Below are positions 14,245 through 20,791 of a stretch of 64,000 nucleotides of DNA, piece after piece. Source of the stretch: Chelativorans petroleitrophicus (lineage in GTDB: Bacteria; Pseudomonadota; Alphaproteobacteria; Rhizobiales; Rhizobiaceae); the NCBI RefSeq assembly GCF_025398195.1, contig NZ_JAODNV010000017.1, positions 1 to 64,000 on the forward strand. Reading direction: 5' to 3'. The notes below the pieces were generated by a model, which had not been told where the DNA came from, searched no databases, and saw nothing but the letters and a program-made list of their open reading frames with translations. A program made the position numbers and the translations under genes. Every line of letters starts with the position of its first letter. Within the stretch, counting starts at the first letter, position 1.

Positions 14245-14316
14245 ACGCCTCAGCCCTAGCTTCCCTGCTCTTCTATTGCACGGGCATCGCCTTCCGCGAA
14301 GCTGAATGCACGTGCT

Positions 14317-14350
14317 ATCGGCGGCAAGCCCTATGGGCAGTGCCGCCGAT
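14317..14350. repeat. GC-rich nested palindrome
   Basis: ATCGGCGGC (14317-14325) pairs with GCCGCCGAT (14342-14350). Inside it GCCC (14328-14331) pairs with GGGC (14335-14338) around TAT. No T-run follows on the plus strand. It lies 73 bp after the DoxX gene and may mark the end of that transcript or be a dispersed palindromic element. Comparison with other loci of the genome would tell. Confidence 0.5.
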
Positions 14351-14449
14351 GATTGCCGTGTCCCGAACGCATTCGGGCGATTGTCGCCTGAGGCATTTTC
14401 CATGTCGTTTTCATGTTCGCCCCGGACATCCGCCCATGCTCATCTTTAG

Positions 14450-14636
14450 GTGTTCAGGGTGCTCTCCGGCGAAAATGCCGGAGAGATAATTGGGAAGCCG
14501 GTGAGAAGCCGGCGCTGCCCCCGCAACGGTAACGAAGTTCAAGTTCCGGCTTGAGCCACTGGGCGCATTGCCCGGGAAGGTGCTGGAAACGGTCCGCCAG
14601 GACAGCTTCGAAGCCCGGAAACCAGCCTTGAACGAT
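14450..14636 (+). promoter_or_regulatory. Cobalamin (adenosylcobalamin) riboswitch upstream of gbcAB
   Basis: The conserved core is present in order: GGTGTTCAGGG opening helix P1, GGGAAGCCGGTGAGAAGCC, CTGCCCCCGCAACGGTAA, GCCACTG, and the B12 box AAGCCCGGAAACCAGCC at 14611-14627. P1 closes by GTTCAGGG (14452-14459) with CCTTGAAC (14626-14633), one G-U pair. A terminator-like hairpin lies downstream at 14678. The next gene is a Rieske oxygenase of glycine betaine demethylation, not a cobalamin synthesis or transport gene. The expected effect is lower expression when cobalamin is plentiful. Confidence 0.93.
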
Positions 14637-14677
14637 CTGGAACCGACTGATCGCGGTGGGCGATCAGGAGGCGGTGT

Positions 14678-14706
14678 GCCACGGGCGGCATGCCCTGGCT
14701 TTCCTT
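14678..14706 (+). terminator. Terminator-like hairpin in the riboswitch expression platform
   Basis: GCCACGGGC (14678-14686) pairs with GCCCTGGC (14692-14699), with one bulged C, and is followed by TTTCCTT. Just before it CTGATCG (14647-14653) pairs with CGATCAG (14661-14667), a possible competing helix. The arrangement fits transcriptional attenuation about 45 bp before the gbcA start, although the T-run is short and interrupted. Confidence 0.5.
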
Positions 14707-14750
14707 CCTCCATCACCACCAGTTCAGTCCTTTGCGCTGCGAGGACGGAC

Positions 14751-15995
14751 ATGGACGCACGTAACGAAATGCTGAGGCTGATCCAGAACAGGCGCCAGGG
14801 ATTCAGCCTGCCCCGGCCATTCTACAACGCCCCCGACTTTTACCGGCTCGACCTTGAACTCGTATGGTATCGCGAATGGCTTTTCGTTGGCCATGAATGC
14901 GAGATCGCCAAGCCCGGCAGCTATTTTACGGTGCAAGTGGGCGATTATCCGGTGGTGGTGGTGCGCGGACGGGACGGCATCATCCGGGCGCTGCACAACA
15001 GCTGCCGTCACCGGGGCAGCCGCGTCTGCACCGGACGGAAGGGCACGGCGGCGAGGCTGGTCTGCCCCTATCACCAATGGACCTATGACCTCGACGGTTC
15101 GCTCCTTTTCGCGCGCGAGATGGGTGAGGCGTTCTGCAAAGAGGACTTCAGCATGAAGCCGGTGGCCTGCGAGAGCGTTGCCGGCTACATCTTCATCTGC
15201 CTTGCCGAAGAGCCTGCCGACTTCACGCCCTTCCGCGAGACGATGGAGCCCTATTTCGCGCCGCACAACCTGGCGGAAACCAAGGTGGCCCATGAGGCGA
15301 CCATCATCGAAAAGGGCAACTGGAAGCTCGTCTGGGAGAACAACCGCGAGTGCTATCACTGCTCCGCGAACCACCCCGAGCTCTGCAAGACCTTTCCGGA
15401 AGCGCCCACGGTGACAGGCGTAAGCGGCGCTGAAAAAGACCCCGAGATCATGGAGCATTGGTCGCGCTGCGAGGCGGCGGGGCTGCCCTCGCGTTTCCGC
15501 ATCGACGAGGCAGGGCAGTATCGCGTCACACGCGCGCCGCTTCTGCGCGATGCGGTGAGCTACACCATGACGGGCAGGCCGGCGGTGAAGCGCAGGCTTT
15601 CGGATCGCGTATCCGAGCGCATCGGCACGCTGATGCTCTACCACTACCCGACAACATGGAACCACATTCTGGGCGACCACGCTGTGACCTTCCGCGTGCT
15701 GCCGCTGAGCGCGACCGAGACGGCGGTGACCACCAAGTGGCTGGTGCACAAGGATGCGGTGGAAGGCGTCGACTACGACCTCAAGGAGCTGATCCACGTC
15801 TGGACCGAGACCAACGACGAGGACCGCCGCATCGTCGAGGAGAACGCCCTGGGGGTGAAGTCTCCGGCCTATGAGCCCGGCCCCTATTCTCCCGTGCATG
15901 AAGGCGGCGTGATCCAGTTCGTCGAATGGTACGCCAGCTTCATCGGGCCAAGGCTCGCCGAGGGCGCCGACACGAAGCTACGCCGCGTCGCCTGA
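14751..15995 (+). CDS. gbcA: Glycine betaine demethylase, Rieske oxygenase subunit (GbcA)
   Basis: Rieske non-haem iron oxygenase (414 residues) that oxidatively removes a methyl group from glycine betaine, giving dimethylglycine and formaldehyde. The [2Fe-2S] ligands are Cys85/His87 in CRHRGSR and Cys105/His108 in CPYHQW. The mononuclear iron site lies in ENNRECYHCSANHPE (His203, His208). The ATG at 14751 is taken because GAGG precedes it and the Rieske protein starts here; an upstream open frame runs back through the riboswitch platform. gbcB follows after 17 bp. Stachydrine demethylase is a close alternative, but the ENNRECYHC..NHPEL block is the GbcA pattern I know. Confidence 0.85.
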   Translation: MDARNEMLRLIQNRRQGFSLPRPFYNAPDFYRLDLELVWYREWLFVGHECEIAKPGSYFTVQVGDYPVVVVRGRDGIIRALHNSCRHRGSRVCTGRKGTAARLVCPYHQWTYDLDGSLLFAREMGEAFCKEDFSMKPVACESVAGYIFICLAEEPADFTPFRETMEPYFAPHNLAETKVAHEATIIEKGNWKLVWENNRECYHCSANHPELCKTFPEAPTVTGVSGAEKDPEIMEHWSRCEAAGLPSRFRIDEAGQYRVTRAPLLRDAVSYTMTGRPAVKRRLSDRVSERIGTLMLYHYPTTWNHILGDHAVTFRVLPLSATETAVTTKWLVHKDAVEGVDYDLKELIHVWTETNDEDRRIVEENALGVKSPAYEPGPYSPVHEGGVIQFVEWYASFIGPRLAEGADTKLRRVA

Positions 15996-16012: not shown

Positions 16013-17113
16013 ATGAACGCCGTGCACCCGCCCGGGCTTTACCGCCATCTCGACGAGATGACGCCGTGGGATGATCGCCTTCAGGTATTGGAAGTGATAA
16101 GCGTGACCGATGAGGCGCCGCAGGTGAAGACCTTCACCTTCCGCTCCGATGCGCAGGCCTGGTTCCGTTACAAGCCCGGTCAGTTCATCACGCTGGAACT
16201 GCCCAAGGCAGGCGGGCCCTTGCTGCGGACCTACACGCTCTCCTCCTCGCCATCGCGGCCGTTTTCGATCTCGGTGACGGTGAAGGCGCAGGCGGAAAGC
16301 ATCGGCTCGCGCTGGATGTTCGATTATCTAAAGCCGGGCGACCGCGTAAAGGCCGATGGCCCCTCCGGCGAATTCTCCCATCACAACCATCCGGCGGAGA
16401 AGTATCTGTTCATCTCCGCCGGTTCCGGCGTCACGCCGATGATGTCCATGCTGCGCTGGATGCACGACTGCGCGCCCGAAACGGACGTGGCCTTCATCAA
16501 CTGCGCGCGCAGTCCCGAGGACATCATCTTCCGCAAAGAGCTGCAGCTTATCGGCAGCCGAATGCCGGCCCTGTCGCTAGCCTTTCTGGTCGAGCAGCGA
16601 TCGAACCGCGAGACCTGGTCCGGCCTTCTGGGCCGCATCAATGCGACTCGTCTTCAGCTCCTTGCTCCGGATTTTCTGGAGCGTGAAATCTTCTGCTGCG
16701 GCCCGGCGCCGTTCATGCGCACGGTCCGGGCCATTCTGGAAGCCGCTGGCTTCGACATGGCGCACTACCATCAGGAGAGCTTTTGCGCTCCGGCGGTGGA
16801 GGAAGTTCCAGCCCCGTTTTCCACCACGGAGAGGACAGCGCCCGCAGCGGAAGCATTTCTCTTGCGCTTCAGTCTATCCGGAGTCGAGGCCTCATGCCCT
16901 CCCGGTGAGACCGTGCTTCAGGCCGCACGCGCCGCAGGCGTACGCATTCCCTCGGCCTGCGAGTTCGGCCTCTGCGGCACCTGCAAGGTGAAGAAGAGTT
17001 CCGGCGAGGTGGCGATGAGCCACAATGGCGGCATTCTGGATGAGGAGATCGCCGAAGGGTTCATCCTTGCCTGCTGCTCAAGGCCCCTCACCGCGATCGA
17101 GATCGAGGCATGA
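16013..17113 (+). CDS. gbcB: Glycine betaine demethylase reductase subunit (GbcB)
   Basis: 366-residue electron-transfer partner of GbcA. An N-terminal FAD domain (YKPGQFITLELP, RTYTLSSSPSRP) is followed by an NAD(P)H domain (FISAGSGVTPMMSMLRWMHD, FCCGPAPFM) and a C-terminal plant-type [2Fe-2S] ferredoxin with CEFGLCGTC (Cys316, 321, 324) and a fourth Cys in ACCSR (354/355). This order (FNR module then ferredoxin) is that of GbcB/CntB-type reductases. The ATG at 16013 follows a GGAG-rich stretch. It is in one operon with gbcA, and hence under the same cobalamin riboswitch. Confidence 0.88.
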   Translation: MNAVHPPGLYRHLDEMTPWDDRLQVLEVISVTDEAPQVKTFTFRSDAQAWFRYKPGQFITLELPKAGGPLLRTYTLSSSPSRPFSISVTVKAQAESIGSRWMFDYLKPGDRVKADGPSGEFSHHNHPAEKYLFISAGSGVTPMMSMLRWMHDCAPETDVAFINCARSPEDIIFRKELQLIGSRMPALSLAFLVEQRSNRETWSGLLGRINATRLQLLAPDFLEREIFCCGPAPFMRTVRAILEAAGFDMAHYHQESFCAPAVEEVPAPFSTTERTAPAAEAFLLRFSLSGVEASCPPGETVLQAARAAGVRIPSACEFGLCGTCKVKKSSGEVAMSHNGGILDEEIAEGFILACCSRPLTAIEIEA

Positions 17114-17164: not shown

Positions 17165-18445
17165 TTACCCGAATGCGAGGTTAGGCAGCCAGAGTACGAG
17201 CCCGGGCACAAACAGAAGCACGAGGATCAGTGCGATTATCGTTCCCAAAAAGGGGAGCGACTCGATCGTGTACTCCTCGATCTTCACATTCATCAGCGAG
17301 CACACGGCGTACATGGCCACGCCCACTGGAGGCGTCATGCCACCCATGGTGACGATGCTCATCATCAATATGCCGAAATGGACCGGGTCGATGCCGATCT
17401 GCGTGACGATGGGCACGAAAATCGGGGTCAGCAGCAGCACCAGCACGGTGCTTTCGACGAAGCAGCCGGCAATCAGCAGGAAAAACAGGATCAGGATCAC
17501 CGTCACATGCGGATTGGTGATGCCCTCCAGCATCCAGGACGAGATGCCCTGCGGCACCTGCAGATAGATGATGGCGAAGCCGACCATGCCCGACATCAGG
17601 ATGATGATCATGATCAAGCCGATGTCGGAAATGGCGTGAGCGAAGGCACGCTTCACCTTCTCGAAGGTCATCTCGCGATGGGCGAGGAAGCCGACGAGGA
17701 TGGCATAGACCACGGCAAAGGCGCCAACTTCGGATGGCGTGAAGATGCCGCCGCGGATGGTCAACACCAGCGCAACCGGAAAAAGCAGCGCCCATTTCGC
17801 GCCCCAGATAGCTGAAAGCAGGGCGCGGAAGGTCGGGCGCTCGGTGTCAGCGACCACATAGTTGCGGCGCTTGGCAATGATGTAGGTGGTGGTCATCAGG
17901 CCGGCCATCATCAGGAGGCCCGGAATGATGCCGGCAATGAAGAGCCGTCCGATCGAGACATTGCCGACATAGCCGTAGAGGATGAGGCCGATCGAGGGCG
18001 GGATGGTCGCTGTGATCAGTGAGCCGACGGCAATCGCCGCAGCCGAAAAGCCCTTGCCGTAACCCTTCTGGATCATCGTCGGACCGAGGATGCGCGCCTC
18101 CATGGCCGCATCGGCCACCGCCGAGCCGGACACGCCGCCCATGACAGTAGACAGCACGATGGCCACCTGTGCGAGCCCTCCCGCCATCCAGCCGACCGCA
18201 ACATAGGAGAAGCGGAACAGACGCTCGGTGATGCCGCTTTCGTTCATCAAATGGCCGGCGAAGACGAAGAAGGGAACGGCGAGAAGGGGAAAGCTCTGGC
18301 TCATCGTCGCGATCTTCTGCACCGCGATCGACATCGGCATGGTGTCGCTGGTGGCGAAGAACATGAACCCCGAAATGCCGATGGCGAACGCGACCGGCAA
18401 TCCAAGAAACATCAGAACGAAGAAAACAGCCGTGACGAGAACCAT
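17165..18445 (-). CDS. TRAP transporter large permease (DctM type)
   Basis: 426 residues with about 12 hydrophobic segments, the sodium-driven transport subunit of a tripartite ATP-independent periplasmic transporter. Typical blocks are FPLLAVPFFVFAGHLMNESG, GGVSGSAVADAAM and IPPSIGLILYG. The start lies 3 bp after the DctQ stop. The gene order binding protein - DctQ - DctM with a divergent GntR-FCD gene is usual for carboxylate or sugar-acid uptake. The substrate is not readable. A link to the convergent gbcAB is only positional. Confidence 0.92.
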   Translation of the reverse strand: MVLVTAVFFVLMFLGLPVAFAIGISGFMFFATSDTMPMSIAVQKIATMSQSFPLLAVPFFVFAGHLMNESGITERLFRFSYVAVGWMAGGLAQVAIVLSTVMGGVSGSAVADAAMEARILGPTMIQKGYGKGFSAAAIAVGSLITATIPPSIGLILYGYVGNVSIGRLFIAGIIPGLLMMAGLMTTTYIIAKRRNYVVADTERPTFRALLSAIWGAKWALLFPVALVLTIRGGIFTPSEVGAFAVVYAILVGFLAHREMTFEKVKRAFAHAISDIGLIMIIILMSGMVGFAIIYLQVPQGISSWMLEGITNPHVTVILILFFLLIAGCFVESTVLVLLLTPIFVPIVTQIGIDPVHFGILMMSIVTMGGMTPPVGVAMYAVCSLMNVKIEEYTIESLPFLGTIIALILVLLFVPGLVLWLPNLAFG

Positions 18446-18448
18446 GCG

Positions 18449-18964
18449 TCAAAGCTCCGCGCCGGAGATCTTGGCATCATCGCTGCGGCTGTAAATGAGT
18501 TTCGAGCCGTCATGCCGGCCCGGCCACGCCCGCACAATATTGTTGAGCAGCGCGATAGCGAGCATCACGCAGCCGGCTGGGACCGCGGACGTGACCCAGG
18601 CATAGGAGATGCCGCTGTCGCCAAACTGGCGGCGCATGTTGAGAGTCGTCAACTGATAGCCTTCGACGGCCAGGAGCCCGAGAAAGACGAACACGATGAT
18701 CGAAAGCACCAGTTCCAGCCTGAACCGGTGTTTCAGGGGCAGCCAGCGGATCAGAAGGTCGATCCCGAGATGGCCCTTTTCGCGCATCGCCCGCGTGGCG
18801 CCCAGGAAGCAGAGCCAGATGAAGAGCAGCTGCGCCGTATCGACCGACCAGATGAGCGGATGGCCGAAGGTGCGCGCGACCGCCGCCAGAAAGACAAGGG
18901 CCACGATGGCGGCCAGAAGCAGGGAAGCGACAAGGAATTCAAGCTGGGCGAGACGGCGGAGCAT
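18449..18964 (-). CDS. TRAP transporter small permease (DctQ type)
   Basis: 171 residues with four hydrophobic segments. WSVDTAQLLFIWLCFLGATR and GHLGIDLLIRW are family features (the W..E/D..R..FIW.. FLGA pattern and the conserved H..ID). It pairs with the large permease in the inner membrane. It is translated from the ATG at 18964, 65 bp downstream of the binding-protein gene in the same operon. Confidence 0.88.
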   Translation of the reverse strand: MLRRLAQLEFLVASLLLAAIVALVFLAAVARTFGHPLIWSVDTAQLLFIWLCFLGATRAMREKGHLGIDLLIRWLPLKHRFRLELVLSIIVFVFLGLLAVEGYQLTTLNMRRQFGDSGISYAWVTSAVPAGCVMLAIALLNNIVRAWPGRHDGSKLIYSRSDDAKISGAEL

Positions 18965-19029
18965 GAGTCACCCTGTGAATGGATCGCGCGGACACTGAGG
19001 CGTCCGCGCGCATTGGAGAAGAAGCGAAC

Positions 19030-20001
19030 TTATTCGCTGGCGATGGCCTGCAGCTCTTCGCGCAGATCGCCGTAGCCTAGCTTGTCATAGACGCCGGCCG
19101 TCGCCTCGCGGAAGGGCGTCACGTCGATCTCGGCCACTTCCATCCCGTTGGCCTTGAGCTGCTCTTCGATTTCGGCCAGCGCGTCGCGCGTGCCGTAGGA
19201 GGCGGTATCGCCTGCCTTCAGGGCTTCCTCGCGCAGGATGGTCTGCAGTTCAGCGGGCAGGCTGTCGAACCAGGCCGCGCTCGTCACCAGACCGGTGATC
19301 AGGTTGATGTGTCCGGTCTTGGTGAGATGCTTGGTCACCTCGTAGAGCTTCGAACCGTATCCCGCGGGGAGTTGGGCCTCGACCGAATCGATCACGCCCT
19401 GCTGAAGCGCCGAATAGACCTCGGCATAGGGCATCGGCGTCGGCGTTGCGCCCATCGCGGTGATCGTTTCGATCCAGACTGGCGCGCCCGGCGTGCGCAT
19501 GCGCGAGCCTTCAAGGTCCGCCGGTTCCGTGACCGGCTCATTGGTCCAGAGCTGCCGTTCGCCCTGCCACCAGTTGAAGGACAGAATCTGCAGACCGGCC
19601 GAATCGCGCAGCTTGCCGACCCATTCCTCGAAAAGCGGCGAGGTCACGACCTTACGGATTCCCTCGTAGCCGGACGCGAGATAGGGCGCACCCAGAACGC
19701 CGAATTCCTCCTGATACACCGCAAGACGCCCGCCATCGACAACGACGGCAACAGGTGCGCCTGCACGTCCCTGCTCCAGCACGTCCTCGTCCGGGCCGAG
19801 CTGCGAGTTCGGGAAGAGCTTGACTTCAATAGCGCCTTCGGAACGTTCCGCGACCGCGTCACGGAAGGCCTCCAGCCCCTTGTAGAGCGGATCGTCCGTG
19901 GTGAGTGCCGTGTTGATGCTGAGCGTGTAGTCCGCAGCCTGCGCCGGCTGCAAAGCAACAAAGGAGCAGGCGGCAAGCAAGAGCTTGAGAGCGAGCTTCA
20001 T
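19030..20001 (-). CDS. TRAP transporter substrate-binding protein (DctP family)
   Basis: 323-residue periplasmic receptor. The signal peptide MKLALKLLLAACSFVALQPAQA ends before ADYTLSIN. The middle holds the carboxylate-binding region typical of DctP: LWTNEPVTEPADLEGSRMRT followed by GAPVWIETITAMGATPTPMP and EVYSALQQGVIDSVEAQ. GGGAGGAAATC precedes the ATG at 20001. It is the first gene of the TRAP operon. The 79 bp upstream are shared with the divergent GntR gene, the likely operator region. Confidence 0.92.
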   Translation of the reverse strand: MKLALKLLLAACSFVALQPAQAADYTLSINTALTTDDPLYKGLEAFRDAVAERSEGAIEVKLFPNSQLGPDEDVLEQGRAGAPVAVVVDGGRLAVYQEEFGVLGAPYLASGYEGIRKVVTSPLFEEWVGKLRDSAGLQILSFNWWQGERQLWTNEPVTEPADLEGSRMRTPGAPVWIETITAMGATPTPMPYAEVYSALQQGVIDSVEAQLPAGYGSKLYEVTKHLTKTGHINLITGLVTSAAWFDSLPAELQTILREEALKAGDTASYGTRDALAEIEEQLKANGMEVAEIDVTPFREATAGVYDKLGYGDLREELQAIASE

Positions 20002-20060
20002 GATTTCCTCCCTAAGGAATGAGGTTAGTTAGCCGTTTAGCATCTTTCGCAGACTAGAAT

Positions 20061-20080
20061 GGTAGTATATAACTGTCAAC
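20061..20080. promoter_or_regulatory. AT-rich divergent promoter/operator candidate
   Basis: GGTAGTATATAACTGTCA in the 79-bp space between dctP and the GntR gene holds TATATA (20066-20071), a possible -10 only 9 bp before the GntR ATG at 20081, which has no visible ribosome binding site. That would give a leaderless or near-leaderless transcript. The flanks AGT...ACT form a short dyad that could be the GntR-FCD site, but the match is weak. Confidence 0.3.
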
Positions 20081-20791
20081 ATGACAATGAAATCCGGACT
20101 CACGCTTCTTCCCGATGAGAGCCGCAGCCTGCGTCAGGCAACGATCGGCAACCGGGTGTTCGAGGCGCTGCGCAAGGCCATCGTCCAGCTGCAGCTAAGG
20201 CCCGGAAACCCTTTGTCCGAAGCTGATATAGGGCGCCAGCTCGGCGTTTCCCGCCAGCCGGTGCGGGAGGCCTTCATCAAGCTGGCTGAAATCGGGCTCG
20301 TTGAAATCAGGCCGCAGCGGGGCACTTTCGTGCGGCTGATTTCGGTGCGTGAGGTGCAGAATGCGCGCTTTCTGCGCGAGGCGATCGAGGTGGCGATTGC
20401 TCGCAAGGCCGCATCCCAAACGACCCTGGAGCGGGTGCGCGGCCTGAGATCGATTGTCGAAGAGCAGCACATCGCCGCGCGCGAGGGGGATACTGTCTCC
20501 TTTCTGCGGCTCGACGAAGCGTTTCACCAGGCACTGGCACGAAGTGTTGATTGCGAAGACGCCTGGCGGGTGCTCGAAGGACTAAAGGCTCAGATGGACC
20601 GCGTACGCTATCTGTCGCTGCCCGATGCCACTCCGCTGGAGATCATCATCGCGCAACATCAGAAGATCGTGGATGGGGTCGAAGGCGGCTCGTCAGAACA
20701 GGCCGAAACTGCGATGCGCCATCATCTCTCGGAGATTTTGATCTCCCTTCCCAAACTGGCGAAAGAGCGATCGGAATTCTTCACCGATTGA
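20081..20791 (+). CDS. GntR family transcriptional regulator, FCD subfamily
   Basis: 236 residues. The winged helix is at about 20-85 (IGNRVFEALRKAIVQLQLRP, SEADIGRQLGVSRQPVREAF, RPQRGTFVRLI). The C-terminal all-helical FCD effector domain has the metal/ligand residues expected around D (FLRLDEAFHQALA) and H (IIAQHQKIVDGV, AMRHHLSEI). It is divergent from the TRAP operon with 79 bp between, so it most likely controls that transporter in response to its substrate. The ATG at 20081 lacks a clear ribosome binding site; a second in-frame ATG is at 20087. Confidence 0.9.
   Translation: MTMKSGLTLLPDESRSLRQATIGNRVFEALRKAIVQLQLRPGNPLSEADIGRQLGVSRQPVREAFIKLAEIGLVEIRPQRGTFVRLISVREVQNARFLREAIEVAIARKAASQTTLERVRGLRSIVEEQHIAAREGDTVSFLRLDEAFHQALARSVDCEDAWRVLEGLKAQMDRVRYLSLPDATPLEIIIAQHQKIVDGVEGGSSEQAETAMRHHLSEILISLPKLAKERSEFFTD

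Follow-up and report, generated by a model that had tools for sequence, protein, structure and literature searches.

A cobalamin (vitamin B12) riboswitch was identified directly upstream of a gene pair resembling gbcAB, the oxygenase and reductase genes of glycine betaine demethylation, in a 64,000-nucleotide stretch of Chelativorans petroleitrophicus DNA (contig NZ_JAODNV010000017.1, positions 1 to 64,000; hereafter the window). We consider it highly likely that this RNA, acting as a B12-OFF switch, guards GbcAB as a B12-independent substitute for a corrinoid betaine-type demethylase. In this proposal we infer the ligand, the direction of control, the substrate and the translational platform, and the corrinoid MttB/Mtg system and GbcAB would perform the same kind of task. 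The evidence that carries it is that the riboswitch and the genes for MttB-family methyltransferases and the corrinoid protein MtgC are found together in almost the same set of genomes. This strongly supports one rationale of an initial annotation of this DNA, namely that GbcAB stands in, without B12, for a corrinoid betaine methyltransferase, and further backing comes from riboswitch-controlled formaldehyde dehydrogenase, nrdA(B), metE and MesXD in relatives. The other rationale of that annotation, that betaine breakdown furnishes glycine for corrin synthesis, did not stand.

While B12 is plentiful, the OFF-type riboswitch would hold GbcAB down, and the corrinoid system (the MttB-family MtgB, MtgC and MtgD/E) would demethylate betaine and pass the methyl group to folate or methionine. 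Once B12 falls, the corrinoid system would stall and the riboswitch would release gbcAB, whose products would then demethylate the same kind of quaternary amine oxidatively, giving formaldehyde. A formaldehyde dehydrogenase would remove this product; in some relatives its gene has a riboswitch of its own or lies directly downstream of gbcAB.

The riboswitch and its host genome

The Rfam covariance model for cobalamin riboswitches (RF00174) matches positions 14440-14644 of the plus strand at 116.5 bits, far over the gathering score of 31.5 (E 1.6e-28). The aptamer is of full length, covering model positions 1-189 of 189 and including the closing helix with its few non-standard pairs. The initial annotation had described a complete core with a closing P1 helix and proposed an Rfam comparison for the region, and the match bears out that description. 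It had also placed the gene pair within 120 bp of the element with no cobalamin synthesis or transport gene in between; accurately so, as 106 bases separate the aptamer end from the ATG of the gbcA-like gene at 14751, and no intervening gene was found. An alignment of six elements locates the core motif GCTGCCCCCGCAACGGT with loop L5 (CCCCC) at 14514-14530 (plus strand). In that alignment, gbcA-type aptamers combine ACGG with CCCGG (14514-14530 and 14618-14624 in the window), whereas ACUG and CCAGG stand in the corresponding places of the switches that the same genome has before nrdA, metE and the TonB receptor. The gbcA-type element thus has a G-C pair where the others have U-A, apparently a compensatory change that marks a lineage. 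The whole leader folds more stably than shuffled sequences (z = -3.24).

The host genome (3.96 Mb, 99.97% complete) holds four cobalamin riboswitches according to Rfam, the one before gbcAB among them. The other three precede a ribonucleotide reductase alpha subunit, metE and a B12-type TonB receptor, families that were assigned on open reading frames cut by the retrieved stretch. In this genome neither cobJ (best match 54.8 bits against a cut-off of 246) nor a canonical metH was found. Because both are missing, the host very probably imports B12, cobJ and metH being the only two B12 genes on which this judgement is based. The parts of a corrinoid demethylase are encoded on contig 2 of the same genome: two MttB-family methyltransferases, an MtgC-like corrinoid protein with both B12-binding domains, a DUF1638 protein, a Bhmt homologue (betaine-homocysteine methyltransferase, MtgE-like) and a pterin-binding MetH-like module (MtgD-like). 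PMC12478193 describes MtgBCD(E) as a betaine demethylase that depends on cobalamin and as a split methionine synthase. Judged by their sequences, the contig 2 genes are parts of this MtgBCDE system.

Conservation of the link between riboswitch and gbcA

The initial annotation had asked for a conserved link between riboswitch and gbcA in relatives, and the link is indeed conserved. A scan of named genomes returned at least 586 loci, and among the best 80 (68-84% identity) the exact core motif lies 228-348 nt upstream of gbcA (median 246) in 71; in eight of the nine named loci without the motif, Rfam detected no element. Within the host family, the switch precedes a close gbcA in 100 of 140 genomes, and Rfam-confirmed elements also occur in other genera of the family. 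Outside it, at the level of the class, the switch is present in 7 of 11 genomes with gbcA, spread over five families. Rfam-confirmed elements also precede related oxygenase/reductase pairs on plasmids of Phaeobacter gallaeciensis and Ruegeria TM1040 and on Sinorhizobium meliloti pSymB (locus L116; 100.3 bits). No cobalamin riboswitch was found at two Stc2-type loci of S. meliloti pSymA (L221, L224), at the Paracoccus versutus copy (71% identity) or at the Caballeronia copy.

Co-occurrence with corrinoid methyltransferases

If GbcAB is a spare for a B12-dependent enzyme, the switch is expected only where such an enzyme exists. This expectation was examined in 296 family genomes of at least 95% completeness, of which 140 have a close gbcA (E <=1e-175), with MttB presence taken as a match to PF06253. 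The switch was called by its motif in 93 of the 140, where the motif call stands for the switch state without an Rfam rescan of each genome. Checking all 47 motif-negative genomes with Rfam added seven more elements, five in genus g372, which run counter to the pattern, and two that agree with it. Switch and MttB were both present in 95 genomes and both absent in 38, with five genomes having the switch alone and two having MttB alone; MttB was therefore found in 95/100 genomes with the switch and in 2/40 without it (Fisher p = 2.5e-26, kinship ignored). By genus, 33 wholly have both, nine wholly have neither, three are mixed with both traits changing together, and two are discordant. In a gene tree built from 96 of the 140 proteins, each trait changes nine times. 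Across seven independent pairs separated by supported branches, an average of 5.6 differ in the same direction, 0.0 in opposite directions and 1.4 not at all (median p 0.03).

Other samples behave alike. MtgC was detected in 38 of 80 sampled genomes, comprising all 36 with both switch and MttB and both genomes with MttB only, and in none of the other 42. Outside the family, MttB is present in 7/7 genomes with the switch and 1/4 without; among 45 named genomes, a partly overlapping set, the figures are 37/37 and 3/8. Mere loss of B12 use does not explain the correlation, since all 80 sampled genomes hold some cobalamin riboswitch and 37/39 of those without the switch before gbcA retain a canonical metH.

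Fellow targets and neighbours

Fourteen gbcA-type motif sites lie elsewhere than upstream of a close gbcA, and 12 were examined. Four of these (L286, L287, L290, L291) precede a glutathione-independent formaldehyde dehydrogenase (TIGR02819, above cut-off), in L291 with a homocysteine S-methyltransferase (PF02574) between riboswitch and dehydrogenase, and a fifth riboswitch-preceded formaldehyde dehydrogenase was found in Shinella sp. PSBB067 (L117). In L041, L061, L110 and L293, a gene for the same enzyme directly follows riboswitch-gbcAB in the same orientation, in L061 behind a second Rieske gene. As formaldehyde arises on the oxidative route and not on the corrinoid route, formaldehyde dehydrogenase as a fellow target provides independent support for the substitute proposal. 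Three further sites (L289, L295, L296) lie 610-700 bases before a second Rieske oxygenase. These genes resemble the second Rieske oxygenase of locus L219, which is 32% identical to the GbcA of the window. Rfam confirms the elements of L285, L288, L292 and L294 at 40-110 bits, and no target gene was identified at these four sites. The site at L293:4834 is on the opposite strand, faces gbcA-gbcB-fdhA and has no clear target.

Genes for B12-sparing enzymes also occur beside gbcAB itself in a minority of cases. Most of 86 loci surveyed over 11 kb each show no nrdA(B), metE, MesXD or btuB-like gene. A nearby riboswitch-controlled nrdA was found in L037, L040, L097, L100 and L219, and an nrdA also lies near gbcAB in L042 and L094; an nrdB-like gene is present in L037, L040, L094, L097 and L100. 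Similarly, riboswitch-controlled metE lies near gbcAB in L040 and L097, MesXD in L103 and L219, and a btuB-like receptor gene in L041 and L091. L138 and L139 each contain another cobalamin riboswitch, arranged head to head with the gbcA one and followed by a ribonucleotide reductase alpha subunit.

Considering these targets together, we lean towards the existence of an alphaproteobacterial B12-sparing catabolic regulon. In it, riboswitches would toggle methylated-amine breakdown between corrinoid methyl transfer and an O2-dependent, formaldehyde-making route, co-ordinating GbcAB, the second Rieske oxygenase, formaldehyde dehydrogenase, homocysteine methyltransferase, MesXD/MetE and NrdAB.

Three arrangements deserve separate mention. 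Four cobalamin riboswitches were observed within 20 kb at L219:1581-19366 (G528:C38), an island of B12-sparing genes in which they precede nrdA, gbcAB together with the second Rieske oxygenase, MesX-MesD, and a stretch with a nickel-type ABC binding protein. A thiamine pyrophosphate riboswitch lies downstream of the second Rieske gene at L295:2263-2364. At L218:2727-5066, a riboswitch-controlled btuB-like receptor gene adjoins mtgC and is divergent from an MttB gene.

Leader and expression platform

A P13-type hairpin, CUGAUCGC-GGUGG-GCGAUCAG, was recognized at 14647-14667 (plus strand) by leader comparison and folding. In cobalamin riboswitches of known structure, whose helix names are used here, L5 makes a kissing contact with the loop of a downstream hairpin. 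The P13 loop GGUGG is complementary to L5 CCCCC save for one U-C mismatch, and the two loops may kiss in the same way; the P13 motif recurs with at most three mismatches in 54 of 61 dereplicated leaders of relatives. Further downstream, the element CCACC-AGUU-CAGUC (14716-14729, plus strand) is complementary to GACUG(A)...GGUGG at 14645-14659. This pairing, which is present in the ligand-free minimum free energy fold of the leader, could form the alternative helix of the ON state. The Shine-Dalgarno sequence of gbcA, GAGGAC (14741-14746, plus strand), is shared by the leaders of many relatives; its AGGAC is complementary to GUCCU at 14727-14731 (plus strand), a putative anti-Shine-Dalgarno of the OFF state.

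We regard a translational platform, which would sequester the Shine-Dalgarno sequence, as likely. In the ligand-free fold the P13 hairpin is broken and the start site mostly open, whereas holding P13 leaves Shine-Dalgarno and AUG paired. In the bound aptamer, L5 would contact the P13 loop while Shine-Dalgarno and AUG are paired; in the free aptamer, the 5' arm of P13 would pair with the downstream element and the start site would be more open. The folds of the downstream part are nearly equal in energy, at -52.8 kcal/mol with the Shine-Dalgarno paired and -52.5 kcal/mol with it mostly open, a difference of 0.3. Across relatives, forming P13 lowers the predicted openness of the Shine-Dalgarno in 47 of 54 leaders, with a small mean difference (0.25 against 0.32). 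Covariation of the alternative helix was left uncounted because the element hardly varies within one group of leaders and cannot be recognised in others.

The terminator-like hairpin of the initial annotation, at 14678-14699 of the plus strand, did not survive inspection. It has no U-tract, a scan of 14245-14760 for intrinsic terminators found none (0.6 expected from shuffles), and among 33 relatives' leaders neither conservation of this stretch by eye nor a conserved U-tract was seen. A terminator platform was accordingly rejected.

Identity of the oxygenase and reductase

The gbcA-like gene (14751-15995, plus strand, ATG at 14751) encodes a 414-residue protein with Rieske (PF00355, 67.8 bits) and Ring_hydroxyl_A (PF00848, 115.1 bits) domains, both above cut-off. 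The gbcB-like gene (16013-17113, plus strand) encodes a 366-residue protein with the FAD, NAD and 2Fe-2S domains of a reductase. Domain and family profiles agree with the naming of the initial annotation insofar as GbcA and GbcB are the best curated names in NCBIfam for the two proteins; both nevertheless fall below the equivalog cut-offs, the reductase reaching 381.6 bits of the 500 required by NF058606. Since both scores lie below the model cut-offs, we use gbcAB as a well-founded working name rather than as a proven identification. The nearest solved structures of the oxygenase are 3n0q (from TM1040), 3vca and 4qup; the latter two we take to be stachydrine demethylase Stc2, to which the window protein is 55% identical. 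The riboswitch-controlled protein of Ruegeria TM1040 (L118:5303-6529) agrees with PDB entry 3n0q, deposited as a putative dioxygenase, at all 391 residues that were compared, and the structure of a relative is therefore at hand.

Weighing the proposal and its alternatives

Several observations weigh against the proposal that GbcAB is a riboswitch-guarded substitute for a corrinoid demethylase. MttB occurs without the switch in genus g379 (two genomes), in Rhizobium sp. FY34 (L112) and in class genome G196, and also beside distant Rieske relatives without a switch in G001 and G005 (56-57% identity) and G003 and G040 (46-47%), for which reason the rule is valid for close orthologues and not for every paralogue. 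Of the 156 family genomes that lack a close gbcA, 113 have MttB as well; as MttB-family paralogues have several substrates, its presence is no proof of a betaine enzyme. Conversely, the five genomes of genus g372 (L188, L197-L200) carry the switch without MttB or MtgC. Only some seven to nine independent changes, on a gene tree, carry the correlation. With regard to the protein, the oxygenase reaches 510.1 bits against the cut-off of 670 of the GbcA model NF058607, and none of ten relatives tested reaches that cut-off (428-535 bits, the window protein included). Moreover, for the switch-controlled proteins of Phaeobacter, Ruegeria, G487 and G448, identity to Stc2 is 64-68% and exceeds that to the window protein (55-56%). 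Finally, the platform model is statistically weak, with mean duplex z scores of -1.4 and -0.6 against shuffles.

The g372 elements score 56-62 bits and are altered in the L5 loop, the GCCACUG motif and the end motif, and no P13 motif was seen in the two g372 leaders examined. An in-frame stop interrupts metH in four of these genomes, and the fifth has a split copy; this switch looks like one in decay along with the loss of B12-dependent methyl transfer. A weak riboswitch element (68.8 bits) was also found in G527. A decayed-looking copy is what might be expected if the aptamer were a leftover or served another gene, its place before gbcAB being incidental. Such an explanation is hardly credible for the window, where no gene separates aptamer and gbcA and the leader folds better than its shuffles, and given that position and core are kept in 71/80 named loci and in five families outside that of the host.

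The same circuit might serve another substrate, such as proline betaine (stachydrine), a carnitine-like compound or some other quaternary amine, with the matching MttB paralogue in place of MtgB. We regard this as a real, though less probable, alternative to betaine. It draws on the sub-threshold GbcA score, on 3n0q and stachydrine-demethylase-type entries (3vca, 4qup) as the nearest solved relatives, and on the several riboswitch-controlled proteins closer to Stc2. The window protein itself, however, is only 55% identical to Stc2; the gene of its 71% identical relative in Paracoccus versutus has genes for a BCCT transporter, a GlxA-type regulator and a formaldehyde dehydrogenase as neighbours, and a glycine betaine binding protein is encoded some 3 kb from the Phaeobacter copy.

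Low B12 might also switch on GbcAB mainly for the supply of one-carbon units or methyl groups to B12-independent methionine synthesis, in keeping with gbcAB lying beside riboswitch-controlled metE (L040, L097) or MesXD (L103, L219), near metH-like matches (L048, L061, L064, L091) or near metH (G563, G653), and with the riboswitch of G529, which precedes a homocysteine S-methyltransferase and a formaldehyde dehydrogenase. We judge this unlikely as the main purpose: the switch tracks MttB/MtgC and not metH, which is present in 37/39 sampled genomes without the switch and 32/41 with it, and oxidation by GbcAB destroys a methyl donor. The two explanations overlap, since MtgCDE is also a methionine synthase (PMC12478193). 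Far less probable is that betaine breakdown at low B12 yields glycine for 5-aminolevulinate and new corrin. In its favour, the initial annotation had invoked the betaine feeding of industrial B12 producers, and betaine is indeed reported to raise their yields (PMC8123684), but those strains are B12-rich and the switch should be off in them. This explanation was rejected on the cobJ result: like the host, which is counted among them, 6/41 sampled switch-gbcA genomes lack cobJ, and 28/39 sampled genomes without the switch possess the gene.

Relation to known systems

Cobalamin riboswitches guard B12-independent versions of biosynthetic enzymes. The element described here belongs to the same RNA class as those before metE and nrdAB and follows the same B12-sparing logic, and in the host both metE and a ribonucleotide reductase carry one; here, in contrast, it precedes a catabolic Rieske N-demethylase, and in some relatives formaldehyde dehydrogenase is targeted as well. 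Thus, a cobalamin riboswitch guarding a B12-independent substitute is known, and what is new is the kind of target, a catabolic Rieske demethylase. The pair shares with GbcAB of Pseudomonas and Chromohalobacter the Rieske oxygenase, the FAD/2Fe-2S reductase and the two-gene order, and differs in falling below both curated cut-offs; we know of no riboswitch before gbcAB in those two genera. It is likewise related to stachydrine demethylase Stc2/Stc4, with oxygenase and reductase genes side by side, and differs in having the riboswitch that the two S. meliloti pSymA loci lack. Reportedly, Rodionov et al. in 2003 noted a B12-regulated 'ardX-frdX' (ring dioxygenase, ferredoxin-like) in alphaproteobacteria; in that case the link as such had already been noticed, without a function. 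We found no paper linking a cobalamin riboswitch to gbcA, or to a Rieske protein and glycine betaine, within a partial coverage of the literature. PMC3766115 names an isozyme class in cobalamin regulons, and neither 'dioxygenase' nor 'betaine' occurs in its main text, the part considered here. The presumed B12-dependent counterpart is MtgBCD(E), whose genes the host possesses and whose route is non-oxidative, passing the methyl group to folate (PMC12478193); in the part of that paper considered, 'riboswitch' occurs once, in a reference title about a glycine riboswitch.

If the substitute proposal is correct, B12 status decides between transfer of betaine methyl groups to folate and their oxidation. 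The B12-isozyme rule then appears to extend to the breakdown of an abundant osmolyte, which would yield formaldehyde only in B12 shortage. This would offer a genomic reason for the presence of two betaine-type demethylases in many rhizobia; in S. meliloti, the pSymB copy would be a riboswitch-controlled candidate route beside the Mtg-type route proposed in PMC12478193.

Beside gbcB in the window, positions 17165-20791 encode a tripartite ATP-independent periplasmic (TRAP) transporter (DctM, DctQ and DctP, minus strand) and a GntR-type regulator.

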